Source of the DNA: Anaerolineae bacterium
GTDB lineage: Bacteria > Chloroflexota > Anaerolineae > Anaerolineales > Villigracilaceae
Assembly: GCA_018648605.1 (NCBI GenBank)
Contig: JABGQU010000017.1
Coordinates: 1-33,653, forward strand
DNA: 33,653 nucleotides
Reading direction: 5' to 3'
In this document: positions 10,511 to 28,715 of the stretch, in pieces
Layout: each line of letters begins with the position of its first letter
Numbering within the stretch: the first letter of the stretch is position 1
The notes under the pieces: model-generated
Told to the model about the DNA's origin: nothing
Database searches by the model: none
Seen by the model: the letters and a program-made list of their open reading frames with translations, nothing else
Translations under genes and position numbers: made by a program

Positions 10511-11521
10511 TTATCCCAAGGTCGATTCTCGCAAAATCAATGTAGGCTCTAAGGTTTGCTGACGGATAATATTCTCTTCTCCATTGGTATAGGCTCTAAA
10601 AGCCTGCATTGCGCGATGGCCCAACTCACGCTTGTTTGTGCGTAATGTGCTTAGTTTTGGTTTCATGATGGAGGCAAGGGGTATATCGTCAAAGCCGATT
10701 ACCGCTACCTGGTTGGGGATATCCTTCCCAAGTTCATCGCAAGCTTGTATGGCACCAAAGGCGACCAGATCGTTGAAGCTAAGGATAGCGGTAATATCAT
10801 CCCGACCAGACAATAATGCAGTTGCTGCGTGATATCCACCGGTGGTGTCAGGGGAACAGGGAAGGACGAGGTTTTCATCGTAGGGAATGCTGTGTGTTTC
10901 AAGAGCCTGTATAAACCCCTTGAGTCTACGCTCCCTGCTTATGGATTCTTCTGGCCCCGTGAGAAATGCAATCTTTTTGTGTCCTTGATTCGAAAAATGT
11001 TTAATGGCTAAAGCCGAGCCGTATGCGTCATTAATATTGATGGTTACACAATCACTGCGGGGTGAATTTAATTCTCTGTTGATAAGTGCCGTAAACTGAA
11101 AATGCTCAATATGTTTTTTTAGCTGATCAAAAGGCAGGCGAGGACTGCAGAGAATAACACCATCAACTTGCTTTTCAAATAAAGAATGAAGGGCTTTTAT
11201 TTCCCGCTTTATATCTTCATCTGTATTGACCAGAAAAATATTGTAGCCCATTGCATAAGCAAGATCTTCCGCACCTTTGGCTATCTGAGAAAAGAAGGGA
11301 TTGGTTACATCTGGCATCATCAAGCCAACGGTAGAAGATCGCTTTGTGGCCAGAGCTCGAGCTACTCCGCTGGGACGATAACCAAGCTGGTCTGCGATAC
11401 TTAAAATTTTCTTGCGGGTTTCTTCGCTAAGGCCTGGGCGATTATTCATAGCTCGCGAGACGCTCATCAGTGAGACACCTGCGGCTTGGGCTACATCGGA
11501 GATAGTGGGGCGTTTGTTCAT
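10511..11521 (-). CDS. LacI-family transcriptional regulator of the glucuronide locus
   Basis: 336-aa repressor. The N-terminal LacI helix-turn-helix and hinge are textbook (TISDVAQAAGVSLMSVSRAMN, then ADQLGYRPSGVARAL with the hinge helix). The rest is a periplasmic-binding-protein-like sensor domain (VGLMMPDVTNPFF, VIGFDDIPLASIMKPKLSTL). It is transcribed divergently from the MFS-led operon, and palindromic operators lie between the two starts, one just in front of its own start, so it probably represses both itself and the operon until an inducer such as a glucuronide, glucuronate or downstream acid binds. The ligand is inferred from the neighbours only. Length is normal for LacI. Confidence 0.93.
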   Translation of the reverse strand: MNKRPTISDVAQAAGVSLMSVSRAMNNRPGLSEETRKKILSIADQLGYRPSGVARALATKRSSTVGLMMPDVTNPFFSQIAKGAEDLAYAMGYNIFLVNTDEDIKREIKALHSLFEKQVDGVILCSPRLPFDQLKKHIEHFQFTALINRELNSPRSDCVTININDAYGSALAIKHFSNQGHKKIAFLTGPEESISRERRLKGFIQALETHSIPYDENLVLPCSPDTTGGYHAATALLSGRDDITAILSFNDLVAFGAIQACDELGKDIPNQVAVIGFDDIPLASIMKPKLSTLRTNKRELGHRAMQAFRAYTNGEENIIRQQTLEPTLILRESTLG

Positions 11522-11599: not shown

Positions 11600-11666
11600 A
11601 TTATGCTTTCTGTAGCGCTCTTTGTCAAGTATGTTCTTTCAACTTTATCCAGTAAGGAGAAATAAA

Positions 11667-12950
11667 ATGTCTGAAACTGCTGTGTCTAGTGCTGTGCAAG
11701 ATGAATTTGAGAAACCAAAGGGTCGATGGGGCGGCCTCCTTTCAATGGCATTTTCTTTTGTTGTTGATAACACTGAAGGCGGCTTGATTAATGGTCTTTT
11801 CCCTGTTATTCGAGATGCCCTAGGGCTAAATCTCGGTGCTTTGGGTATTTTTTCAAGTATCAGTAAATTTGCTAGAATGATCTTTGGCCCTCTCTGGGCA
11901 ATGGTGGCAGATAAATATGGTCGCAAAAAGATTTTGGTCTTTATTACAGGCGTTTGGGGGATCTGGACTGCCTTAGCGGGGCTTGCGCAAAATCAGACGC
12001 AACTCTATATCCTGTATACGCTCGGTGTTATCGGCACAGTAGCCAGTGAGCCAATTGCTAACGGCATTATCGTTGACCTTTTTGCATCAACAGAGCGAGG
12101 AAAAGCATATGGCTCATTGCGTGCAATTACTGGATTGCTTAGTGTTATGGTGACCCCGGTGATGGGACAGCTTGCCAATATTGAAAACGGCTGGCGTTAT
12201 GGTATGTATATCATGGGTGGGATGAGTATCTTGAGTGGTATCCTGATCGCTATTTTCCTTAGAGAACCTGAGCGCCGCATTTCAAGCGCTGATGCCGAAA
12301 GTGGCATTGACTGGAAAAAAGCTGTTGCGCTGATGCAAATTCCCACTGTTCGTTTGCTAGCAGGGATGTTGATCTTTGTTACGAGCCTGGTTTTATTTTC
12401 ATTCATGGTTACATTCATGGTGGATGTACGCGGCTTCACTACAGCCGATGCCAATATTGTCTTTGCTGCATTTGGGCTTGGCATGATGATCAGTTCTGTC
12501 CTTGGCGGTCTTTTGGGTGACTGGGCTGAACGCAAAAATCCCGATAAAGGTCGTATTATGCTAATGCAGATATATCTGATTACCTTTGCAGCCTTGACCT
12601 ATCTTGCGACGCAAATTGCCTGGAGCACAACAGGGTTTTATGTGATCTGGTTTGTGACCGGACTTGTTTTTTCAATCGGCTTCTCAGGATGTGTCCAGCC
12701 CATGCTTTCCAATGTTGTGCCACCTAAAATGGCAGGAACCGCTTTCGCTTTGCTCTTTGCGTTTATTCAAGGTTTGATCTCTGCGTTGCTCTCGTTGGCG
12801 ATGGGCTTCCTCGCAGATAAACATGGCTTGCAAGCAGTCATGTTCTGGATGATCTCTGTGCCATACGCACTCAACGCGATCTATTGGTTCTTGTTCTACA
12901 AGACCTATCCAAGTGATGTTGCTAAAATAAAAGCGTTAGCAGCACAATAA
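11667..12950 (+). CDS. MFS transporter, probable glucuronide/hexuronate importer
   Basis: 427-aa protein with about 12 transmembrane helices of the major facilitator superfamily. The loop after helix 2 carries the family motif as ADKYGRKKI (near residue 75), repeated in the second half as GDWAERKNPDKGR. The start is set at ATG 11667, which has AAGGAG at 11654-11659; an upstream ATG at 11622 lacks one. It is the first gene of the operon, 12 bases before the beta-glucuronidase, which has no export signal, so this carrier most likely brings intact glucuronides (or free uronates) into the cytoplasm. Substrate is inferred from context; the superfamily is certain. Confidence 0.88.
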   Translation: MSETAVSSAVQDEFEKPKGRWGGLLSMAFSFVVDNTEGGLINGLFPVIRDALGLNLGALGIFSSISKFARMIFGPLWAMVADKYGRKKILVFITGVWGIWTALAGLAQNQTQLYILYTLGVIGTVASEPIANGIIVDLFASTERGKAYGSLRAITGLLSVMVTPVMGQLANIENGWRYGMYIMGGMSILSGILIAIFLREPERRISSADAESGIDWKKAVALMQIPTVRLLAGMLIFVTSLVLFSFMVTFMVDVRGFTTADANIVFAAFGLGMMISSVLGGLLGDWAERKNPDKGRIMLMQIYLITFAALTYLATQIAWSTTGFYVIWFVTGLVFSIGFSGCVQPMLSNVVPPKMAGTAFALLFAFIQGLISALLSLAMGFLADKHGLQAVMFWMISVPYALNAIYWFLFYKTYPSDVAKIKALAAQ

Positions 12951-12962
12951 AAGGTGATTTTT

Positions 12963-15092
12963 ATGCTATATCCAATTCAAAATGATTTTCGTAATAAACT
13001 TGATATTTCTGGTATCTGGGATTTCCAGATAGATGAAAGTGAAACAGGCGAAGCTGAGGGCTGGTTCAACGGATTACCTGCATCTCGCCCGATGGCAGTA
13101 CCCGGTAGTTGGAACGAACAGTACGAAGACCTTTTCAATTACTTCGGGCTAAGTTGGTATGTTAAACGAACCTATATTCCAAACAGTTGGAAAGGGGATA
13201 ATGTTTATATTCGTGTTGGATCGGCCTGTTATTTTGGCACTGTCTACGTCAACGGAGTAAAAGCCGGTTCGCACGAGGGTGGACACTTGCCCTTTGCCTT
13301 CGACATTTCTGAGCTAGTAAACTGGGGTGCCGAAAATGTGATCGCCATCAGCGTGGAGAACCATCTCAAACCCACACGGGTGCCTTCTGGCAATTTGGGC
13401 GGCGGGCTGGCAACGAATCCCATTATGATGGGTTATCCCGCCACCACCTTCGACTTCTTCCCCTTTGCAGGGCTGCACCGCCCGGTGGTGTTGTACTCCG
13501 TCCCGCAAGCCCATATAACGGATGTGACCGTCGTGACGGAAGTTAACGGCGACAATGCTAAAGTGAAAGTAAATGTCGAAATTAACGGTCAGCAAGATGA
13601 AGGGCGTGTGACTCTGGCGGGCGAAAAAACAGTAGAAGCTGAAGTTACGCTCAAAGATGGTTTAGCGGAAGTTGTTTTAGATGTGCCATCCGCCCGCCTT
13701 TGGTCCGATAAAGACCCTTATCTTTATGATCTGACCATTACAACCAACACGGACAGATATTCACTCAAGGTTGGTATTCGCACGATTGAAGTTCAGGGCG
13801 GGAAAATCCTTCTCAATGGCAAAACTGTGGAACTGAACGGCTTTGGCCGCCACGAAGATTTTTTCGCCAGCGGCAAGGGCCTGAACCTGCCCCTGATGGT
13901 CAAAGACTACCAGCTGATGCGCTGGACGGGGGCCAACAGCTATCGCACCTCGCATTATCCCTACTCTGAAGAAGAGATGATGCTCGCCGACCGTGAAGGC
14001 TTCCTGATCATCGACGAGATCCCTGCCGTCAGCTTGCAATTCGATAACGCAGAAAATATGGCAGAGCGCTACCGCATGTGCATTCAGCAAATCGACGAGT
14101 TGGTCACCCGTGACAAAAACCATCCCAGCGTGGTCATGTGGAGTGTTGCCAACGAGCCGATGCCCGCCGACATGATGGAGCGCTTTACCGGCGGCAAAGT
14201 GGACGAGACGAAAGATGTCGCTAGCACTGAATTTTTGCATGGTTTGGTTGCCCACGCCCGCAAACTCGACCCCACGCGTCCAATCACTATCGTTGGCGTG
14301 ATGGGCGGCCCCACCAACTGGCTCGAAACCTGCGATGTCGCCTGCATCAACCGCTACTGGGGCTGGTACATGCACGGCGGCGAACTCGACAAAGGCATCG
14401 CCATGATTGACCAGGAACTCGATGCGCTCTGGGATGTATGGCAAAAGCCCATCATCGTCGCCGAGTTTGGCACCGATACCCAGCCCGGATTGCACGGTCT
14501 CCCTGCTGTGATGTGGACCGAAGAGTACCAAGTGGCGTTCATCCGCGGCTATCTCGAAGTCGCCGCCAAAAAAGATTTTGTCGCTGGGATGCAAGTGTGG
14601 AACTTCGCCGACTTTGCCGCAGTGCAATCGATCGCGCGTATCGGCGGGATGAACATGAAAGGCGTCTTTACCCGTACCCGTCAGCCCAAAATGGCTGCCC
14701 ATACTTTGAGGGAGTTCTGGGTTGAAAAAGTGGGTGCTGCTTCCAATGCCGCTCCCGAGACGAACGTGCCCGAGCCTGATACTGCCCCCGAAGGTAATAC
14801 CCAATCCTTGCTAGAGGGGCTTGCGAGCCAGCTCAATGGCAAGAAACCTGACCTGACCACAACACTGAAATTCGATTTTCATGATGAAGGCATTTACCGC
14901 TTGATTATTAAGAAGGGTGCCTGTCATATCGAACCTGGCGATGGTGAAGCAACCGCCACGATGCGCATCAAATGGAAGGATGCCCAAAAGCTCTTTGCAG
15001 GCAAGCTCGACCCGATGGTTGCAATTATGACAGGTAAAATCAAGAGCGAAGGTGATGCCCGAGCCTTTATGATCTTACAAGACGCACGATAA
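12963..15092 (+). CDS. GH2 beta-glucuronidase fused to a C-terminal SCP2 domain
   Basis: 709-aa enzyme, about 100 residues longer than E. coli UidA. ATG 12963 follows AAGGTG (12951-12956); the GTG at 12954 overlaps that site. Domains: GH2 sugar-binding (about 15-185), Ig-like (about 190-285), TIM barrel (about 285-600), then SCP2 sterol-carrier fold (about 615-709: LKFDFHDEGIYRLIIKKG, LFAGKLDPMVAIMTGKIKSEGD). Catalytic acid/base Glu398 (ANEP) and nucleophile Glu501 (EFGTDT) are present, as is the N-x-K motif (Asn564, Lys566 in NMKG) that grips the glucuronate carboxylate, so this is a glucuronidase rather than a galactosidase. There is no signal peptide: cytoplasmic. It should release glucuronate from conjugates; the SCP2 domain could hold a greasy aglycone. 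The fusion is unusual. Confidence 0.93.
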   Translation: MLYPIQNDFRNKLDISGIWDFQIDESETGEAEGWFNGLPASRPMAVPGSWNEQYEDLFNYFGLSWYVKRTYIPNSWKGDNVYIRVGSACYFGTVYVNGVKAGSHEGGHLPFAFDISELVNWGAENVIAISVENHLKPTRVPSGNLGGGLATNPIMMGYPATTFDFFPFAGLHRPVVLYSVPQAHITDVTVVTEVNGDNAKVKVNVEINGQQDEGRVTLAGEKTVEAEVTLKDGLAEVVLDVPSARLWSDKDPYLYDLTITTNTDRYSLKVGIRTIEVQGGKILLNGKTVELNGFGRHEDFFASGKGLNLPLMVKDYQLMRWTGANSYRTSHYPYSEEEMMLADREGFLIIDEIPAVSLQFDNAENMAERYRMCIQQIDELVTRDKNHPSVVMWSVANEPMPADMMERFTGGKVDETKDVASTEFLHGLVAHARKLDPTRPITIVGVMGGPTNWLETCDVACINRYWGWYMHGGELDKGIAMIDQELDALWDVWQKPIIVAEFGTDTQPGLHGLPAVMWTEEYQVAFIRGYLEVAAKKDFVAGMQVWNFADFAAVQSIARIGGMNMKGVFTRTRQPKMAAHTLREFWVEKVGAASNAAPETNVPEPDTAPEGNTQSLLEGLASQLNGKKPDLTTTLKFDFHDEGIYRLIIKKGACHIEPGDGEATATMRIKWKDAQKLFAGKLDPMVAIMTGKIKSEGDARAFMILQDAR

Positions 15093-15132: not shown

Positions 15133-16512
15133 ATGAACCCGAGCCGTTTTTTCTCCCCCGACCCAACACTCCGCAAACTGGCTCAAGAACTTTATGAGCC
15201 AGTTGAAAATCTGCCCATCATCTCCCCGCATGGGCACGTCGATCCACGTTTATTCGCCGATCTAAATGCCAGCTTTGGCACCCCAGCGGATCTCTTTATC
15301 ATCCCCGATCATTATGTTACGCGGATGCTCTACTCGCAAGGCATCCCTTACGAAGCACTCTTACATGGCGATCACAGAAAAATCTGGCAATTATTTTGTG
15401 CTAACTTCCATCTTTTTCATGGTACGCCTTCTGGCATTTGGCTAAAGCATGAGCTATATCAAGTTTTCGGGATTGAAGAAACGCCTTCCGCTGCTAATGC
15501 AAATAACCTTTACGACCTCATCAGCGAAAAACTGGCATCGCCAGCATTTTCCCCACGTCGCCTTTTCGAGCGTTTCAATATTGAAATCCTTGCGACCACA
15601 GATGCCGCCACTGACACACTTGAGCATCATCAGGCTATTCGTCAGAGCGGCTGGGATGGACAAATCATCCCCACTTTTCGCCCCGACGCGGTCGTCAACC
15701 TCAACACCCAAAATTGGCAAGAAAATATCGCAAAACTCAGCGAAGTAAGTGGCGTGGATATTGTTGACTACACTTCTTATATCCAAGCATTGGAAGAGCG
15801 CCGAGCATTTTTCAAGTCAATGGGAGCGACAGCGACGGATCACGCTTGTGTTCAGCCTGCTACTGTCAAATTGACATTGTCTGAAGCTGACGCTATCTTC
15901 CAACGTGCGCTTAGAGAAGAGGCATCCCCTGAAGATGCGACTGCTTTTACTGCTCACATGCTACTGGAAATGGCTCGCATGAGTACAGAAGATGGCATGG
16001 TCATGCAACTCCACGCGGGCAGCTTCAGAAATCATAATAGCAAAGTCTTCTCAAAATATGGTGCAGATAAGGGGTTTGATATCCCCATACAAGTAGAATT
16101 CACGCAAAATTTGCGAGCCTTACTACAAGAATTTGGCTCTCATCCAAATCTAACACTCATCCTCTTTAATCTCGACGAAACAACCTACACTCGTGAGTTA
16201 GCACCATTAGCAGGTGTGTACCCTTCGGTAAAAATTGGGCCACCCTGGTGGTTCCACGATAGCTTGAACGGTATGACACGGTATTTTGATCAAGTGATGG
16301 AGACAGCGGGTATTTATAATACAGCAGGTTTTAATGACGATACTCGCGCCTTCGCATCCATCCCCGCACGTCATGACCTTTGGCGGCGAGCATCCGCAAA
16401 TTGGGTAGCGGGAATGGTAGCCAGGCATATTATTGATATAGACGATGCCCATACGATGCTCTTTGAGTTATCAGTCGGATTGGCAAAACGGGCATATAAA
16501 TTGGACAAATAA
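15133..16512 (+). CDS. uxaC: Glucuronate (uronate) isomerase
   Basis: 459-aa enzyme of the UxaC family (amidohydrolase-fold TIM barrel) that isomerises D-glucuronate to D-fructuronate, also galacturonate to tagaturonate. Near the N-terminus SPHGHVDP carries the metal-binding His-x-His (the loop that is HCHL in E. coli); further on MQLHAGSFRNHN and GPPWWFHDSLNGM match family motifs, and DDTRAF near residue 403 fits the conserved late Asp. Length is normal. There is no Shine-Dalgarno sequence before ATG 15133, and a hairpin sits in the leader. It acts directly on the product of the upstream glucuronidase. The next gene overlaps its stop (TAATG). Confidence 0.93.
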   Translation: MNPSRFFSPDPTLRKLAQELYEPVENLPIISPHGHVDPRLFADLNASFGTPADLFIIPDHYVTRMLYSQGIPYEALLHGDHRKIWQLFCANFHLFHGTPSGIWLKHELYQVFGIEETPSAANANNLYDLISEKLASPAFSPRRLFERFNIEILATTDAATDTLEHHQAIRQSGWDGQIIPTFRPDAVVNLNTQNWQENIAKLSEVSGVDIVDYTSYIQALEERRAFFKSMGATATDHACVQPATVKLTLSEADAIFQRALREEASPEDATAFTAHMLLEMARMSTEDGMVMQLHAGSFRNHNSKVFSKYGADKGFDIPIQVEFTQNLRALLQEFGSHPNLTLILFNLDETTYTRELAPLAGVYPSVKIGPPWWFHDSLNGMTRYFDQVMETAGIYNTAGFNDDTRAFASIPARHDLWRRASANWVAGMVARHIIDIDDAHTMLFELSVGLAKRAYKLDK

Positions 16513-17345
16513 TGAACTTAGAAGATATCAAAAAACTTTATGATTTCACCGGTAAGACAGTTGTAATTACTGGTGGTACTGGTGTTTTGGGTGGTGAAAT
16601 AGCTTGCGCCCTAGTGGGCTGCGGAGCCAATGTAGTCGTCTTGGATCGGAACACAGATATCCCGGAAATATATCGTCAACCTATGGATGCCGGCCCAGGC
16701 AAATATCTGGTGGTCTATGCCGATGTGTTGGATAGGCAGACTCTGGAAGATGCTCTGGGAAAAATAGAGAGCGATTTCAGCTCTGTTGATATGCTGATCA
16801 ACGCTGCCGGTGGAAATCATCCAAAAGCGACGACTAACCCGGATCTCTCTTTTTTCGACTTGCCACCAGACGCCGTGCAATGGGTATTTAATCTGAACTT
16901 TATCGGCACCTTACTCCCAAGCCAGGTCTTTGGTAAAACCATGATCAAGCAAGGGAGTGGTGTTATTTTGAACCTTTCATCGATGAGTGCTTATCAACCC
17001 TTGACGCGGATAGCAGCTTATTCAGCTGCCAAAGCGGCGGTCAGTAATCTCACGCAGTGGCTGGCTGTCCATATGGCACAGGAATACTCCCCAGATATTC
17101 GCGTAAATGCGATCGCGCCAGGTTTCTTCCTAACTGAGCAAAACCGTTTTCTCTTAACTGATAAAGACAGTGGAGATTTGACACCGCGTGGGCAGTCTAT
17201 CATTGACCAAACGCCACAGGGACGCTTTGGCGATCCTGAAGACCTGCTTGGTGCAACATTATGGCTACTTTCGCCTGCATCCAAATTTGTGACTGGGATC
17301 GTTCTACCAATTGATGGCGGGTTCTCTGCCTTTAGTGGTGTTTAG
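16512..17345 (+). CDS. SDR oxidoreductase, probable fructuronate reductase (UxuB/YjmF type)
   Basis: 277-aa classical short-chain dehydrogenase. The Rossmann motif is TGGTGVLGG (about residues 20-28), beta-2 ends in VVLDRN (an Asp, favouring NAD), NAAGGN is the NNAG-like motif, the catalytic Ser lies in NLSSMSAY, and Tyr-x-x-x-Lys is YSAAK (about 175-179). Bacillus YjmF-type mannonate oxidoreductases belong to this SDR class and resemble it at the N-terminus. Directly after uxaC and translationally coupled to it, it most plausibly reduces D-fructuronate to D-mannonate. Fold certain, substrate inferred; a gluconate 5-dehydrogenase-like activity is the main alternative. Confidence 0.82.
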   Translation: MNLEDIKKLYDFTGKTVVITGGTGVLGGEIACALVGCGANVVVLDRNTDIPEIYRQPMDAGPGKYLVVYADVLDRQTLEDALGKIESDFSSVDMLINAAGGNHPKATTNPDLSFFDLPPDAVQWVFNLNFIGTLLPSQVFGKTMIKQGSGVILNLSSMSAYQPLTRIAAYSAAKAAVSNLTQWLAVHMAQEYSPDIRVNAIAPGFFLTEQNRFLLTDKDSGDLTPRGQSIIDQTPQGRFGDPEDLLGATLWLLSPASKFVTGIVLPIDGGFSAFSGV

Positions 17346-17346
17346 T

Positions 17347-18609
17347 ATGTTGGATGCCAAGATCATTTCTCAACCCGGCACGTTGCTTGGCAATGATGAA
17401 ATCACAACAACGCTACAAAAGGGGCTTGGTGGAAAGTTTAAAAATCAGCGTGTGCTGGTTTTAATCCCCGACCATACTCGTTCACTGCCTTTGCCCTTCT
17501 TATTCTGTGCGTTGGTAGATGTCTTGCGTAATACTAAACAACTTGATTTTATGGTCGCGCTGGGAACACATCCCCCTTTGAGTGAAGATAGCCTGAACAA
17601 GCTGGTTGGTCTTACTCAAGATGAACGCACGTCTGAATTCAAGCATGTTGGTTTGCTGAACCATGCCTGGGATACGCCCTCCGCTTTGACTTCATTGGGT
17701 ATCATTGAGCAGGATGAGATCAAAGAAATCGCTGGAGAGCGTTGGCATTCTTCCCTCCCTAACGAAGTTGATATTCGCATCAACAAAGCGGTATTGGAAT
17801 ACGACCATATCCTTATTCTCGGCCCAACTTTTCCGCATGAGGTAGTTGGGTTCTCTGGCGGAGCGAAATATCTTTTCCCTGGGATTTCTGGGGCAGAAAT
17901 GATCAACGCAACACATTGGTTGGGGGCGTTGGCTGGAGTGGTTGGAACGATTGGGGTGAAAGATACCCCCATCCGTGAGATGATCCATGCAGCAGCCAGT
18001 CGTTTACAAACCCCGTTGACTTTGGTCGCATTAACGGTAGAAGGTAAGGGGCTCGGTGGGCTATTTATCGGCAACCATGTTGAGGTTTGGGGCGAAGCGG
18101 CGGAGCTATCTGCAGAGCGACATATCCAATGGACTGAGAAGCCTTTCCAACGTGTGCTATCGTGTGCACCATCCATGTATGATGAGTTGTGGACAGGTGC
18201 GAAGGCAATGTATAAACTTGAGCCAGCGGTCGCGTTAGATGGTGAAGTGGTCATTTATGCACCCCATTTGGATGTCGTCAGCCACGTGCATGGAAAATAT
18301 ATTTATGAAGTTGGTTATCATATCCTGCCTTATTTTTTAAATGATTGGGATCGATTTAATCATATTCCGTTGGGTGTATTGGCACACTCTACGCATTTGC
18401 GTGGCTCAGGTGTGATGGAAAATGGCATTGAGAAAGCAAATGTGCGTGTAACGTTGGCGAGCAAACTCCCAAAAGAAGATTGCGAAAGGCTTAACCTAGG
18501 TTATATGAATCCTGAAAAAATCAAGATCGAAGAATGGGAAAATCGCGAAGATGAGGGAGTTTTATATGTTCCCAAAGCTGGTGAGATTTTGTACAGGCTC
18601 AAAAGCTGA
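17347..18609 (+). CDS. LarA-family nickel-pincer racemase/epimerase, candidate mannonate/gluconate 2-epimerase
   Basis: 420-aa member of the LarA (DUF2088) superfamily, whose characterised members use the nickel-pincer nucleotide to racemise or epimerise alpha-hydroxyacids. The key positions are visible: DHTR (Asp42-Arg45), His75 in GTHPPLS, His164 in FPHEVVGFSGG, Lys174 (the cofactor-attaching Lys, Lys184 of L. plantarum LarA) and His190 in NATHW (His200 of LarA). The start at 17347 is one base after the SDR stop; an ATG at 17311 lies inside the SDR gene. D-gluconate 2-epimerases are known in this superfamily, and D-mannonate and D-gluconate are C2 epimers, so a role after the SDR fits. LarB, LarC and LarE, which make the cofactor, are not in the window. 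Confidence 0.88.
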   Translation: MLDAKIISQPGTLLGNDEITTTLQKGLGGKFKNQRVLVLIPDHTRSLPLPFLFCALVDVLRNTKQLDFMVALGTHPPLSEDSLNKLVGLTQDERTSEFKHVGLLNHAWDTPSALTSLGIIEQDEIKEIAGERWHSSLPNEVDIRINKAVLEYDHILILGPTFPHEVVGFSGGAKYLFPGISGAEMINATHWLGALAGVVGTIGVKDTPIREMIHAAASRLQTPLTLVALTVEGKGLGGLFIGNHVEVWGEAAELSAERHIQWTEKPFQRVLSCAPSMYDELWTGAKAMYKLEPAVALDGEVVIYAPHLDVVSHVHGKYIYEVGYHILPYFLNDWDRFNHIPLGVLAHSTHLRGSGVMENGIEKANVRVTLASKLPKEDCERLNLGYMNPEKIKIEEWENREDEGVLYVPKAGEILYRLKS

Positions 18610-18611
18610 CC

Positions 18612-19106
18612 ATGTTTGAAGATGTTTTCCGTACCCACTATGATCGTTATCCCGAAATGCAAACTCAGGATCTATACAAGCTGACCCATCAGGCGGCGCT
18701 TGGAAGCGAACATGGCGTGCCAAATCCTGAGTATGTTCGAAAGCGACTGGTGCAAGAATTAGCTGAAATGGGAAAAGATTTTGATGAACCTGTCTTTGAG
18801 CCTATTTCTCCAGATGGGAAAATAGTGCGCGTTCATTTACGCCCCTTTATCGCTCAGGGTGGAAATCCGGAAAATTTGCTTTCGGCCTTCATTCGCACAG
18901 CAGGAGAGTTTAGTGGAGAAAAGGAAACTCTGGAAAAATACTGGGATATTGTCTCTAAGCTAACTGTTTTTCCACAAGAAAAATTGGAGCATTTTATTCT
19001 CCCCCTGCGAGCTAAGAAATATCCTGCGGTGCATCACTCAGAACGGTATAACACACTCTATAAACCTGCTTATCGAGTGATCCTAAAAGAGTTCTTGGAT
19101 GTCTGA
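18612..19106 (+). CDS. Uncharacterised 164-aa protein
   Basis: Soluble protein without signal peptide or membrane helix, two bases after the LarA-family stop; its last codons overlap the start of the transporter. It has several motif-like blocks: QTQDLYKLTHQAALGSEHG (about 18-36), DGKIVRVHLRPFIAQGG (about 73-89) and PAVHHSERY (about 138-146). Conserved-looking His, Glu and Arg could suggest an enzyme or ligand-binding protein. I do not recognise a named domain. Its tight position inside the operon indicates a part in glucuronide or uronate use, perhaps with the LarA homologue, but no function can be assigned. Confidence 0.75.
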   Translation: MFEDVFRTHYDRYPEMQTQDLYKLTHQAALGSEHGVPNPEYVRKRLVQELAEMGKDFDEPVFEPISPDGKIVRVHLRPFIAQGGNPENLLSAFIRTAGEFSGEKETLEKYWDIVSKLTVFPQEKLEHFILPLRAKKYPAVHHSERYNTLYKPAYRVILKEFLDV

Positions 19107-20025
19107 AAAACTCACTCAAATAAAAACTTTCCTTAATACTCGTGGCAAAGGTTTATTACTCTTGATAGCGATGATAATCGGTGCAATTGTGCCGCAAGCG
19201 CATCGCTACTCCTTCTTGATTCAATATCTCTTAATGGTGATGCTTTTCTTTGCCTTCATGGATATTGATTTGAAGCCACGTCTGTCTCAAAAAGGCGTTT
19301 TTTGGATTTTGCTTGCAAACGTGACCATTGCTTTTGCAGTCTATTCACTTCTTGCTCGTTTTGATCTGCAACTCGCACTGGCGGCTTTCCTGACAGCGAT
19401 TGCACCTACTGCCATCTCAGCAGCCGTCATTGTCAGTTTTGTCAAAGGCGATATGGAATATATCCTCGCCTCGATTCTTCTCACAAATATCGTCATTGCA
19501 CTTATCATCCCGGCCGCCTTGCCATCTCTCACTGGCACAGCGACGCAAATCTCACCTGTTGAAGTTTTGCAGTCCACTGCACTAGTCATGTTTGTGCCCC
19601 TGTTTCTAGCTCAGCTGGTTAAAAAACTCCCGTCAGACAGCCAAAAAACCTTGCGACAAGGTAAATCTCTTTCTTTACCGCTTTGGTTACTGACGCTCTT
19701 TATTGTCAGCGCAAAGGCATCCGATTTTCTTCGTAATGAAAATGCTGCATCTTTGTCTACCATTGGCGCTATCGCTCTGGTTTCTCTGATCATTTGTATG
19801 ATTAACTTTGGGGTAGGCGTCCTACTTGGTGGGCGCACTCATTGGCGTGAATCGGGCCAAGCACTTGGGCAGAAAAATCTCACCTTTGTAATTTGGGTTG
19901 CGATAACCTTTGTCAACCCCCTCGTGGCGATGGGACCCATCTTTTATATTATCTACCACCATATCTACAACTCGTGGCTGATCTATCAATTTGAAAAAAC
20001 GAACACATTAATTGTGGAGGCGTAA
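19099..20025 (+). CDS. Bile acid:sodium symporter (BASS/SBF)-like transporter
   Basis: 308-aa membrane protein with about 9-10 helices. The arrangement resembles the BASS/SBF family: MLFFAFMDIDLKP after the second helix, a helix-break motif IAPTAISAAVIVSFVKGDMEY near residue 95 (compare the CPGGTASN-VVTYLAKGD region of bile-acid symporters) and a second motif with QKNLTF near residue 257. Such carriers take up bile acids, pantoate, pyruvate or other organic anions with sodium. Its start overlaps the stop of the preceding gene (GATGTCTGA). In this operon it could move an aglycone, a conjugate or a sugar acid, in or out. Family call is moderately sure and substrate unknown. Confidence 0.7.
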   Translation: MSEKLTQIKTFLNTRGKGLLLLIAMIIGAIVPQAHRYSFLIQYLLMVMLFFAFMDIDLKPRLSQKGVFWILLANVTIAFAVYSLLARFDLQLALAAFLTAIAPTAISAAVIVSFVKGDMEYILASILLTNIVIALIIPAALPSLTGTATQISPVEVLQSTALVMFVPLFLAQLVKKLPSDSQKTLRQGKSLSLPLWLLTLFIVSAKASDFLRNENAASLSTIGAIALVSLIICMINFGVGVLLGGRTHWRESGQALGQKNLTFVIWVAITFVNPLVAMGPIFYIIYHHIYNSWLIYQFEKTNTLIVEA

Positions 20026-21432
20026 ATGAAAGCAAATTTTGGATTTATGGGATTAGGCGTCATGGGACACATGCTCGCCCTTAATGTTGAACGCAACGGA
20101 TTTCACGTTGCCGGATACGACCTTGACGAGAAAAAGGTTGCCGCCTTTGAGCAGAAGTACCCCGAAAAGAACTTGCTTGCCTGCTCCACCCTCGAAGAGT
20201 TTCTTGCTGCACTCGAACGTCCGCGTCGTATTATGCTAATGGTTCCCTCTGGCGTAACAGACGCCGCCATTAACAGCATAAAAGATTTACTCGAGCCCGG
20301 TGATCTACTCATCGACGGTGGGAACACCTTCTTTCAAGATACAGAAAGACGCTCAAAAGAACTCGAAGACAAAGGCATTGTCTATATCGGTACAGGTGTC
20401 AGTGGTGGCGAACAAGGCGCATTATGGGGACCATCGATCATGCCTGGTGGACAGGACGAAGCTTGGGCGCTCGTAAAGCCCATTTTCGAAGCGATCAGTG
20501 CCAAGGTCGAGGGCGAACCCTGTGTCACCTATATCGGTCCACGTGGTGCTGGGCACTACGTCAAGATGGTGCATAACGGTATCGAATATGGTGATATGCA
20601 GCTTATCGCCGAAGCCTACGATATTTTGCATCGAGGGCTTGGTTTGAGCAATGCCGAATTGCATGAAATCTTCGCAGAATGGAATCGTGGCGAATTGGAA
20701 TCGTATTTAATCGAGATCACGGCTGATATTTTTGCCAAGCATGATCCTGAAAGTGGCCAAGCTGTGGTCGACTTGATCCTGGACGAAGCTGCTCAAAAAG
20801 GTACGGGCAAGTGGACATCGCAAAACGCTCTCGATCTGGGCGCACCAACCCCCACGATTAATGCCGCTGTCGAAAGTCGCATTGTCTCTGCCTACAAAGA
20901 AGAACGTGTAGATGCAGCGAAAGTGCTAAATGGCCCTGGCCCCAAAATATCCCTTGATAAAAAAGAAGTTATTAATTGGGTTCGAGATGCTTTATACACC
21001 GCAAAGATCTGTTCTTATGCACAAGGCTTTGCCCTCATGCGATTGGCGAGCGATGAATATAACTATGATCTGGATTATGACGAGATCGCACGCATCTGGC
21101 GTGGTGGCTGTATTATTCGCGCCCGCTTCCTGAACGATATTCGAGAAGCCTTCAAGCGCAACGCAGATTTACCCAACCTCATGGTTGATGCCGAGTTTGC
21201 AAAGGAATTAAACGCTCGTCAGTCAGCATTGCGTAAAGTTGTAGCGCTGGCAGCTGAAAAGGGTATCCCTGCTCTGGCCTTTAGCGCATCCCTCGCATAT
21301 TACGATGCCTATCGCAGTGCGCGTTTGCCTGCCAATCTGACCCAAGCTCAACGCGATTATTTTGGCGCACATACTTATAGACGTGTGGATAAAGAAGGAA
21401 GTTTCCACACGGAGTGGATTGATGAAAATTAA
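20026..21432 (+). CDS. gnd: 6-phosphogluconate dehydrogenase, decarboxylating, probably NAD-linked
   Basis: 468-aa long-form 6PGDH, normal length. It oxidises and decarboxylates 6-phosphogluconate to ribulose-5-phosphate. Visible motifs: GLGVMGHM dinucleotide loop (about residues 9-16), [19 protein letters not shown] (about 127-145), the catalytic [17 protein letters not shown] with Lys and Glu (about 180-196), and the C-terminal [13 protein letters not shown] and FHTEW. NADP-specific enzymes have an Asn-Arg-Thr after beta-2; here the segment reads GYDLDEKK with an Asp, which points to NAD. A GGAGG lies 6 bases before ATG 20026. Its presence in a glucuronate operon in place of an Entner-Doudoroff set argues that gluconate is formed on the way. 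Confidence 0.93.
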
Positions 21433-21440
21433 GGAGCATG

Positions 21441-22523
21441 ATGAAAAACGGACTTAATATACGGAAAGATGCCGCACTTGATTTGGTCTCGCTCGGCGCA
21501 CTGATACATCGTCTCGATCCGGGACAAATACCCTTCCGCAAAGCAACAGAGTGCAAGATCTATGTCAGTGGTGGGGAATTCAACACGGCTGCCAATCTCG
21601 CAGATTGTTTTCGCCTGAAAACAGGTATCGCAACAGCCATGGTCGATTATCCCGTTGGCGCATTAGTTTCTGAACGAGTGCGGGCTATGGGCGTTAAACC
21701 TTTCTATAAGCATTTTGAGCACAACGGAGTTAATGGCCCGAATATGGCAACCGTTTATAGTGACCAAGGCTATGGTGTACGTGCACCGGTTGTTTTTTAT
21801 AATCGCTCACATGAGGCTGGGGCCATGCTCAAGCCCGGTGATTTTGATTGGGATGAGATCTTTGCCGACGGTGTTCGCTGGTTCCATAGTGGTGGGATCT
21901 TTGCTGCCTTATCAGAAACAACAGGCGAAACGATCATTGAAGGAATGAAAGCAGCGAAAGCCGCTGGTGCAGTTACGTCTTTTGACTTGAACTATCGTGG
22001 AAAATTGTGGAATATCTGGGGTGGTTTGGAGAAAGCGCAAAGCGTAATGCGCCGCATCGTAGAGCATGTGGATGTGCTTGTAGGAAATGAGGAAGACCTT
22101 CAACTTGGATTGGGTATTCCTGGCCCTGAAGTGGAGAAAAAGTCTAAGCTGGATCCGAGTGCATTTGTTGAAATGATCGACAAAGTGACCGACAAACATC
22201 CTAATGTCAAGATCGTGGCGACGACCTTACGCGAAGTACACGCAACTAATCACCATAGCTGGAGTGCCGTTGCCTGGATCGATGGAAAGACTTATCAGGC
22301 TCCCACAGCAGAACTGCACATCCTTGACCGCGTTGGTGGCGGTGATGGGTTTGCTTCTGGCTTTATCTATGCGTTACTTTCAGGAGAAGAAGCTCAAGAT
22401 GCTGTTAATCTTGGTTGGGCGCATGGCTCATTAATGACTACTTTTCCCGGTGATACAACCATGGCAACCGTGGAGCAGGTACGTGCCTTTGCAGAGGGTG
22501 GATCGGCAAGGATACAGCGATAA
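21441..22523 (+). CDS. PfkB-family sugar-acid kinase (KDG kinase-like)
   Basis: 360-aa ribokinase/PfkB-family kinase. AAGGAG (21431-21436) favours the second of two tandem ATGs (21441 rather than 21438). The substrate-side GGEFNTAANLA is near residue 45, and DRVGGGDGFASG near 293 is the ATP/catalytic motif with the base Asp in GGGD. SFDLNYRGKLW and VGNEEDL resemble clostridial 2-keto-3-deoxygluconate kinases. In this operon it could phosphorylate KDG (if a mannonate dehydratase lies elsewhere) or gluconate itself, directly feeding the adjacent 6PGDH. It is the last gene of the operon. Kinase family sure; substrate open between KDG and gluconate. Confidence 0.85.
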   Translation: MKNGLNIRKDAALDLVSLGALIHRLDPGQIPFRKATECKIYVSGGEFNTAANLADCFRLKTGIATAMVDYPVGALVSERVRAMGVKPFYKHFEHNGVNGPNMATVYSDQGYGVRAPVVFYNRSHEAGAMLKPGDFDWDEIFADGVRWFHSGGIFAALSETTGETIIEGMKAAKAAGAVTSFDLNYRGKLWNIWGGLEKAQSVMRRIVEHVDVLVGNEEDLQLGLGIPGPEVEKKSKLDPSAFVEMIDKVTDKHPNVKIVATTLREVHATNHHSWSAVAWIDGKTYQAPTAELHILDRVGGGDGFASGFIYALLSGEEAQDAVNLGWAHGSLMTTFPGDTTMATVEQVRAFAEGGSARIQR

Positions 22524-26807: not shown

Positions 26808-28715
26808 TTATTGACCCATCGCATCGAGCCAAGCCCGCTGACCAACGGTCACGTCAGCAGGGAAGTAGCCAACTTGGGAAATCTCTTCGTTGACGTAGGT
26901 CAGGAAGAAGTTGATGTAAGCAGCAACCTGCGGTTTTTCCTGCATGATGCTGGCGTCCGAGTAAAGGAAGAGCGGACGAGCCAACGGATAGGTGGCGGCG
27001 TCAACGCTCTCGGCGGAAGGTACGATACCTTCGATGGAGAGCACATTCAGCTTATCAGCGTTTTCGGCATAATAAGCGTAGCCAAAGAAACCGATCGCGT
27101 AGGGACTGCCTTCGATACCCTGAACGAGGACATTATCGTCTTCAGAAAGCTGGGTATTGGAAGCAGAGAGCATGGGTTCTTCATCTTTGGCGAAGATCTC
27201 TTCCACGAAGTAGTCAAAGGTGCCGCTGTCTGTGCCGGGGATGTAGCGCAGGATGTCTTCGGCGGGGTAAGCGGGATTGACATCAGACCATTTCTCGGCA
27301 GTCGAGAAGATCAGCGCCAGTTCTTCTTTGGTAACGTTGGTCAGGAAGTCGTTTTCGGTGCTGACGGTGACTGCCAGAGCATCGGTACCAACACGGAATT
27401 CAACCGGAGTGCGACCAATCGCGGCACAAGCTTCAACTTCGCTGTCTTTGATCGGGCGGGAAGCATTGGCAACATCCGTCTCACCGGAGACACAGAAGCG
27501 TTCATAACCAGCGCCGGAGCCGATCGAGTCGATCGTGATCTGACCAGCAAAACCTTCATCCTGGAAGCGCTCAGCCATCACTTCGGCGAGCGGGAAGACA
27601 GTCGAGCTACCAGCGGAAACCACATCACCGGAAACGGTGGCCGGATTAACCATTGGGAGCATCCCCATTTCTTCAGCGGGCATGGCGGTGACATCAGCAG
27701 CCATTGCATCGAGCCAAGCCTGTTGACCAACGGTGACGTCTGCGGGGAAGTAGCCAACTTGGGAAATCTCTTCGTTGACATAGGTCAGGAAGAAGTTGAT
27801 GTAGGCAGCAACCTGCGGTTTTTCCTGCATGATGCTGGCATCCGAGTAGAGGAAGAGCGGGCGAGCCAACGGATAGGTGGCGGCGTCAACACTCTCGGCA
27901 GAAGGAACAATATCTTCGATGGAGAGCACGTTCAGCTTGTCAGCGTTTTCGGCATAATAAGCGTAGCCGAAGAAACCGATCGCGTAGGGGCTGCCTTCGA
28001 TACCCTGAACGAGGACGTTGTCATCTTCAGAAAGCTGGGTATTGGATGCAGAGAGCATGGGTTCTTCATCTTTGGCGAAGATCTCTTCCACAAAGTAGTC
28101 GAAGGTGCCGCTGTCGGTGCCGGGGATGTAGCGCAGGATGTCTTCTGCGGGGTAAGCCGGATTCACATCAGACCATTTCTCGGCGGTCGAGAATATCATC
28201 GCCAATTCTTCTTTGGTGACGTTGGTCAGGAAGTCGTTTTCGGTGCTGACGGTGACTGCCAGAGCATCGGTGCCGACACGGAACTCAATCGGGGTGCGAC
28301 CAATCGCTACACAAGCTTCAACTTCGCTGTCTTTGATCGGGCGGGAAGCATTCGCAACATCCGTCTCACCAGACACGCAGAAGCGTTCGTAACCAGCGCC
28401 GGAACCGATCGAGTCGATCGTGATCTGACCAGCAAAACCTTCATCCTGGAAGCGCTCAGCCATCACTTCGGCGAGCGGGAAGACAGTCGAGCTACCAGCG
28501 GAAACCACATCGCCGGAAACGGCAGCGGGATCAACCATCGGGAGCATGCTTTCGTGCATTTCTGCAGCAGGCGCTTCTTCCACAGTCGTCTGTGGAGCGG
28601 CGGTATCTCCAGTTTGAGGGGCAGCAACAGGTTCAGCAGCGGCGCCACCACAGGCAGCCAATGCCATGCTGGCGACAACCAAAATCATTATTAAAGCAAA
28701 TAAGTGTTTACGCAT
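26808..28715 (-). CDS. pstS: Double-domain phosphate-binding lipoprotein PstS
   Basis: 635-aa lipoprotein, about twice the usual length. The signal peptide ends in a lipobox, LAAC at residues 18-21, followed by an Ala/Pro/Thr-rich linker to about residue 56. Two complete PstS-type binding domains follow in tandem (282 codons each, about 57-338 and 352-633), joined by a 13-residue linker. Each has AGSSTVFPL, SIGSGAGYERF, ASRPIKDSE and GTDSGTF, which bind phosphate. By eye the units differ at only 7 residues, while many silent base differences exist. It captures phosphate outside the membrane and hands it to PstC/PstA. The start follows AAGGAG 11 bases upstream. It is the first gene of the operon behind a Pho-box-like promoter. 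Confidence 0.94.
   Translation of the reverse strand: MRKHLFALIMILVVASMALAACGGAAAEPVAAPQTGDTAAPQTTVEEAPAAEMHESMLPMVDPAAVSGDVVSAGSSTVFPLAEVMAERFQDEGFAGQITIDSIGSGAGYERFCVSGETDVANASRPIKDSEVEACVAIGRTPIEFRVGTDALAVTVSTENDFLTNVTKEELAMIFSTAEKWSDVNPAYPAEDILRYIPGTDSGTFDYFVEEIFAKDEEPMLSASNTQLSEDDNVLVQGIEGSPYAIGFFGYAYYAENADKLNVLSIEDIVPSAESVDAATYPLARPLFLYSDASIMQEKPQVAAYINFFLTYVNEEISQVGYFPADVTVGQQAWLDAMAADVTAMPAEEMGMLPMVNPATVSGDVVSAGSSTVFPLAEVMAERFQDEGFAGQITIDSIGSGAGYERFCVSGETDVANASRPIKDSEVEACAAIGRTPVEFRVGTDALAVTVSTENDFLTNVTKEELALIFSTAEKWSDVNPAYPAEDILRYIPGTDSGTFDYFVEEIFAKDEEPMLSASNTQLSEDDNVLVQGIEGSPYAIGFFGYAYYAENADKLNVLSIEGIVPSAESVDAATYPLARPLFLYSDASIMQEKPQVAAYINFFLTYVNEEISQVGYFPADVTVGQRAWLDAMGQ
26817..27662 (-). 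repeat. pstS tandem unit 2 (C-terminal copy)
   Basis: 846-bp unit coding for the second phosphate-binding domain. It repeats with a period of 885 bp the unit at 27702-28547; the extra 39 bp code for the linker. Confidence 0.9.
27702..28547 (-). repeat. pstS tandem unit 1 (N-terminal copy)
   Basis: 846-bp unit coding for the first phosphate-binding domain, in frame with and nearly identical in protein sequence to the downstream copy, but with numerous third-position differences. Confidence 0.9.

Follow-up and report, generated by a model that had tools for sequence, protein, structure and literature searches.

The window, i.e. the whole stretch of 33,653 nucleotides that was analysed, comes from a draft genome of an Anaerolineae bacterium in the family Villigracilaceae (contig JABGQU010000017.1 of assembly GCA_018648605.1). 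It carries a predicted glucuronide/uronate operon, which would serve the sugar half of its substrates only, and in this operon a GH2 beta-glucuronidase (GUS) is fused to an SCP2 domain. The features are listed below; residues are those of the fusion protein.

10511–11521, minus strand: LacI-type regulator, divergent from the operon (PF00356/PF00532).
11622–12950, plus strand: MFS transporter, 12 nt upstream of the fusion gene (PF07690; spacing).
12963–15092, plus strand: GUS-SCP2 fusion gene, a single intact frame of 709 codons (709 aa) and a stop.
12963–14726, plus strand: GH2 beta-glucuronidase part, residues 1–588 (PF02837/PF00703/PF02836; NF007538; end point of the non-fused homologues).
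14154–14156, plus strand: predicted catalytic acid/base Glu398, with N397-E398-P corresponding to E. coli N412-E413 (alignment; invariant in the fused set).
14463–14465, plus strand: predicted catalytic nucleophile Glu501, corresponding to E. coli E504 (alignment; invariant in the fused set).
14652–14660, plus strand: predicted glucuronate carboxylate motif N564-x-K566, corresponding to E. coli N566-x-K568 (alignment; invariant in the fused set).
14727–14798, plus strand: Pro/Ala-rich variable linker, residues 589–612 (low pLDDT, drifting sequence).
14799–15089, plus strand: SCP2 domain, residues 613–709 (PF02036, predicted fold, dN/dS).
15133–16512, plus strand: glucuronate isomerase UxaC (NF002794, 529 bits, cut-off 387).
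16512–17345, plus strand: D-mannonate oxidoreductase, SDR family (NF006132, 357 bits, cut-off 281).
17347–18609, plus strand: candidate LarA-like nickel-pincer hexonate epimerase (PF09861; best NCBIfam model NF052594 at 166 bits, below its cut-off of 500).
19099–20025, plus strand: 9-TM membrane protein of 308 aa (about nine hydrophobic segments in a crude scan).
20026–21432, plus strand: 6-phosphogluconate dehydrogenase Gnd (NF006765, 698 bits, cut-off 413).
21438–22523, plus strand: sugar (acid) kinase of the PfkB type (KDPG/KDG-kinase models, below their cut-offs).

A sequence-only reading had placed a GH2 glucuronidase running into an SCP2 domain at 12963–15092, and translation and Pfam confirm one unbroken frame there. 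A GTG at 12954 is a possible alternative upstream start. The Pfam domains of the GH2 part cover residues 15–181 (N-terminal), 183–273 (middle) and 275–586 (TIM barrel, E 2.9e-71), and the NCBIfam beta-glucuronidase model NF007538 matches residues 1–588 with 575.6 bits (cut-off 544). Residues were mapped by aligning the protein with an Enterobacter enzyme whose numbering resembles that of E. coli. Glu398, Glu501 and the N-x-K motif, picked out earlier as the catalytic and carboxylate residues, fall on their counterparts in the E. coli-type enzyme, and D164, H331, Y465, W468, Y469, and W546 are likewise kept in this alignment. The protein is predicted to be a GH2 beta-glucuronidase with the full catalytic set. 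No N-terminal signal sequence was seen by eye, so the enzyme is probably cytosolic.

The downstream operon genes, from UxaC to the PfkB-type kinase, are spaced by gaps of 40 nt or less; the LarA-like gene is followed by a gene for an unknown 164-aa protein and then by that for the 9-TM protein. The MFS transporter likely imports glucuronides or uronates, and its homologue adjoins some non-fused GUS genes too. A search for UxuA (PF03786) in the window genome, which is 96% complete, and in two further genomes (G788 and G158) gave no hit. The lack of UxuA, together with UxaC, mannonate oxidoreductase, the LarA-like epimerase (group-18 type, below cut-off), Gnd, and the kinase, suggests a route from glucuronate over fructuronate, mannonate, gluconate, and 6-phosphogluconate to ribulose-5-P. 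Epimerisation of mannonate/gluconate was shown for LarA groups 19 and 20, while hexonate epimerisation by group 18 is only guessed (PMC7583248). The fused locus of the Anaerolineales MAG L051 has a very similar gene order, with UxaE added.

All operon enzymes recognised with Pfam or NCBIfam act on the sugar half, and no genes for steroid or terpenoid aglycones were recognised among them. The 9-TM protein has no sequence match in Pfam, NCBIfam or PDB, and its kinship to bile-acid symporters, which was proposed by eye and would have favoured a steroid substrate, was dropped for want of a Pfam or PDB match. The neighbours of other fused loci include a GH3-type glycosidase (homologous proteins in G167 and G144), a melibiase-like protein with L-rhamnose isomerase RhaA (G381), and an enolase-superfamily dehydratase with a sulfatase-like protein (G101). 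They are too varied to name a single substrate, and the substrates may thus include glycosides from various plant or polysaccharide sources. Elsewhere in the window, 26808–28715 (minus strand) encodes a 635-aa protein of two tandem halves that are 97% identical, by eye probably the phosphate-binding protein of the adjacent Pst-like transport genes.

The SCP2 assignment of the tail, suggested first from the sequence pattern, was borne out by domain search and structure prediction. PF02036 matches residues 632–706 of the full protein (E 1.7e-8, 35.1 bits) and the tail alone with E 7.5e-10 and 39.5 bits (cut-off 21.3), and PF14864, the alkylsulfatase C-terminal SCP2-like family, also matches the tail (32.0 bits, cut-off 27). 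The tail matches SCP2 structures by sequence and, as a profile, reaches E values down to 2.5e-20. An AlphaFold model of the tail alone (pLDDT 89, pTM 0.78) matched 51 PDB chains at Foldseek E ≤ 0.001, with SCP2-fold proteins throughout among the matches listed. In VIA-align the best match is the C-terminal SCP2-like domain of the alkylsulfatase Pisa1 (Z 15.6, 1.9 Å over 100 residues), followed by those of the alkylsulfatases SdsAP (Z 14.3) and SdsA1 (Z 13.3), insect, human, and rabbit SCP2 (Z 11–13), and UbiJ (Z about 10). By these scores alkylsulfatase domains stand level with or ahead of the other relatives. The tail is predicted to adopt the SCP2 fold, which is defined by helices packed on a five-stranded sheet; the model aligns with SCP2-fold structures at Z 10–15.6. 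The full-length model has a mean pLDDT of 67, with parts of the catalytic core below 50 and the linker under 50 over most of its length; it is too weak for the position of the tail relative to the active site to be used.

Thirteen genomes, apparently all from Chloroflexota, carry the GUS-SCP2 architecture. Among 396 genomes searched from the class of the window genome, nine more have an intact fused homologue aligned over residues 1–707 or 708 (G434, G381, G318, G167, G144, G099, G194, G373, and G101), and G158, with an open frame read at 725 aa, is also fused; in G066 the tail-bearing half (residues 433–708) lies on a separate contig. Counted from the search rows, 12 of about 50 genomes with a GusA-type gene in the class sample carry the fusion. 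L051 is the one fused locus found among the best 80 loci of a contig collection with one genome per species. The fusion is absent from the matches examined in other phyla (0 of 11 strong matches in Bacteroidota and 0 of 5 matches in Actinomycetota). That misassembly or a frameshift merged two genes, conceivable for a window from a 211-contig draft, has next to no probability: the identical architecture recurs with divergent sequence in independent genomes from several families. In 11 other genomes the fused homologue is intact and full-length, and in one more it lies in two contig pieces. A frameshift or assembly origin was therefore rejected, and the GH2 glucuronidase-SCP2 architecture is confirmed as real.

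The fusion is apparently ancient. In a tree with 35 other SCP2 domains the GUS tails group together as a single clade (support 99/98), while the maximum-likelihood tree of the GH2 part requires five changes of the fused state, so the simplest reading of the trees is one fusion in Chloroflexota followed by about four losses. Independent fusions are disfavoured by the single clade of tails; recombination between GUS genes may also have occurred. SCP2 pseudogene remnants were not found 3' of non-fused GUS genes (best E 0.15), thus the losses look clean, and no stand-alone tail of the GUS type was found elsewhere in the phylum (fused tails E ≤ 2e-41, next SCP2 7e-15). Non-fused relatives with 64–68% identity lack the tail, which implies that the glucuronidase itself needs none.

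Loss in several lineages could mean that the tail is a leftover without present function, nearly neutral and dispensable, which is very improbable given its rates of change. In four of the five closest pairs tail dN/dS is 0.02, 0.03, 0.10, and 0.16, near or under that of the catalytic part (0.10–0.13 in close pairs); the fifth pair, with 0.35 and almost no synonymous change, is uninformative, and in more distant pairs tail dN/dS reaches about 0.3. Among the five closest pairs, linker dN/dS is 0.24 in one and 0.47–0.62 in the others; mean pairwise identity of the linker is 0.21, and its length varies between homologues. These estimates indicate strong purifying selection on the tail in close pairs and drift of the linker, and the low values imply that the tail is functional where it is kept.

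SCP2 domains are widespread in the class: PF02036 was found in 54 of 60 genomes sampled, mostly stand-alone. A protein of about 1300 aa combines FGGY kinase, 2-hydroxyacid dehydrogenase, SCP2, and class II aldolase (L051:2126–6025, plus strand; also L159, L160, L161, and L258–L262). It lies about 2 kb upstream of GUS-SCP2 in L051, and related proteins are encoded upstream of the fused GUS gene in G099, G194, and G373, the one in G194 (L160) being split over two frames; no strong match was found in the window genome. L256 and L257 have one gene for each of the four parts, side by side, and SCP2 there stands alone. In some genomes such SCP2-linked enzymes are just two genes away from SCP2. The four-part fusion is apparently an undescribed SCP2 partnership in sugar metabolism. 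Ketol-acid-reductoisomerase-like (KARI-like) enzymes also carry a C-terminal SCP2 (L248:668–2191 and L250:658–2139, both plus strand), of the same subtype in the tree as that of the kinase/aldolase fusion. A 662-aa protein of the window genome (contig C37; L172:2611–4596, plus strand) joins a flavodoxin-like FMN reductase to three SCP2 domains and is adjoined by a stand-alone SCP2 gene; similar FMN reductase-SCP2 proteins occur in L249, L251, and L266. An AMP-binding, acyl-CoA-synthetase-like enzyme is also fused to SCP2 in the class.

Because SCP2 occurs on or near enzymes of polar substrates, its presence on an enzyme of this class is a less certain sign of a lipophilic substrate. In Chloroflexota SCP2 might even be an add-on of general use in carbohydrate and uronate breakdown, present on GUS, on the FGGY-kinase/dehydrogenase/aldolase protein, and on a KARI-like enzyme, and organising soluble or membrane-docked assemblies or carrying a lipid-linked sugar intermediate. 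This is an unlikely generalisation; if true, it would give SCP2 a role outside lipid and quinone metabolism.

The preferred reading, with a probability of about 0.42, is that a GUS of a glucuronide/uronate operon gained SCP2 by one old fusion and uses it in handling amphiphilic glucuronides or their aglycone. The MFS carrier would import beta-glucuronides and the GH2 part would cleave them. The SCP2 domain on its flexible linker would bind the hydrophobic end of the glucuronides and/or the freed aglycone, which could raise the local substrate concentration and relieve product inhibition or membrane damage, and the released glucuronate would pass to UxaC and mannonate oxidoreductase. We infer that the tail binds lipid and that its ligand is the aglycone, as well as the kind of substrate and an effect on catalysis. 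The SCP2 domain is plausible as an aglycone tether because its nearest fold relatives are SCP2 domains of alkyl-sulfate hydrolases, in which it sits at the C-terminus of a hydrolase for amphiphiles (PMC5426288). This precedent lends partial support to the proposal of lipophilic aglycone handling made from the sequence; the sugar-half operon, the relatives with about 65% identity and no tail, the repeated loss, and the SCP2 domains on polar-substrate enzymes count against it. Also counted in its favour are GH2 and SCP2 matches above curated cut-offs, the full catalytic set, the conserved tail beside a drifting linker, the missing Loop 1 (see below), the AMP-binding-SCP2 fusion, and the C-terminal domains of other GUS enzymes, which are reported to favour larger glucuronides.

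A serious rival, doubtful in itself, is that SCP2 is an assembly or docking module joining GUS with uronate-pathway enzymes or the membrane, its bound lipid being structural. The analogy is with UbiJ, which binds intermediates and organises a complex (PMC6747719). The kinase/dehydrogenase/SCP2/aldolase protein in the L051 operon and near the fused GUS of three other genomes would fit such a role, as would the separate but adjacent four parts of L256 and L257 and the subtype shared with KARI-like enzymes; yet the GUS tails form a clade apart from that subtype (99/98), the window genome is without a strong match to the kinase/aldolase fusion, and the nearest folds are alkylsulfatase domains. It is unlikely that SCP2 mainly sets quaternary structure and active-site openness with no ligand in use, by analogy with the CBM57 and DUF domains of other GUS enzymes. 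Such C-terminal domains are reported to alter GUS assembly and favour larger glucuronides (PMC6351562), and the tail is placed exactly at the GUS C-terminus, but a long, variable, low-confidence linker is ill-suited to a rigid interface and SCP2 is a dedicated hydrophobic-ligand fold.

What becomes of steroid, drug, and plant glucuronides depends on beta-glucuronidases, whose accessory domains change which glucuronides are cut. A natural GUS with its own SCP2 module makes it possible to ask directly if a hydrophobic pocket held on a tether guides a glycosidase towards lipophilic aglycones, and natural non-fused relatives with about 65% identity are available as controls. With SCP2 also joined to sugar-acid enzymes, its role in Chloroflexota becomes a new question.

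Both halves of the protein are known families, and C-terminal accessory domains are already known separately, on GUS enzymes and, as SCP2, on hydrolases. The combination seems undescribed: the earlier statement that no example was known agrees with a search of the open-access literature, which omits most subscription journals and in which no GH2-SCP2 combination was found.

The domain order, catalytic pair, and N-x-K motif are common to the window protein and the E. coli GusA type (NF007538), whereas the linker and the SCP2 domain are extra. About 18 residues inserted behind the NEP motif also set the window protein apart from E. coli GusA; its non-fused relatives have them too. E. coli-type Loop 1, which lies over the active site (about 15–20 residues, E. 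coli ~360–380), is absent: about 19 alignment columns are empty here in the window protein and in the aligned fused members. In GUS enzymes this loop contacts small aglycones (PMC6351562).

Among eukaryotic proteins, MFE-2 and SCPx likewise have SCP2 C-terminal to a catalytic part (1ikt, Z 12.8 to the tail). They are peroxisomal beta-oxidation enzymes whose catalytic domains are unrelated to GH2. Type III alkylsulfatases probably use their C-terminal SCP2 domain for alkyl sulfates in the way proposed here for glucuronides, a substrate-handling role that is partly established. These enzymes are likewise hydrolases with a C-terminal SCP2-fold domain and give the best structural matches to the tail, but they act on sulfate esters, where the window protein is a predicted glucuronidase, and in place of GH2 they have a metallo-beta-lactamase catalytic part accompanied by a helical dimerisation domain (PMC5426288); no metallo-beta-lactamase domain was found in the window protein by Pfam scan. 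UbiJ and UbiT are likewise bacterial SCP2 domains serving as enzyme accessory factors, but are stand-alone proteins of ubiquinone synthesis, whereas the tail is fused (PMC6747719). BdGUS and BuGUS of Bacteroides (DUF + CBM57) are, like the window protein, GH2 GUS enzymes with C-terminal accessory domains, which affect substrate handling (PMC6351562); theirs are carbohydrate-binding or DUF domains, whereas that of the window protein is SCP2.
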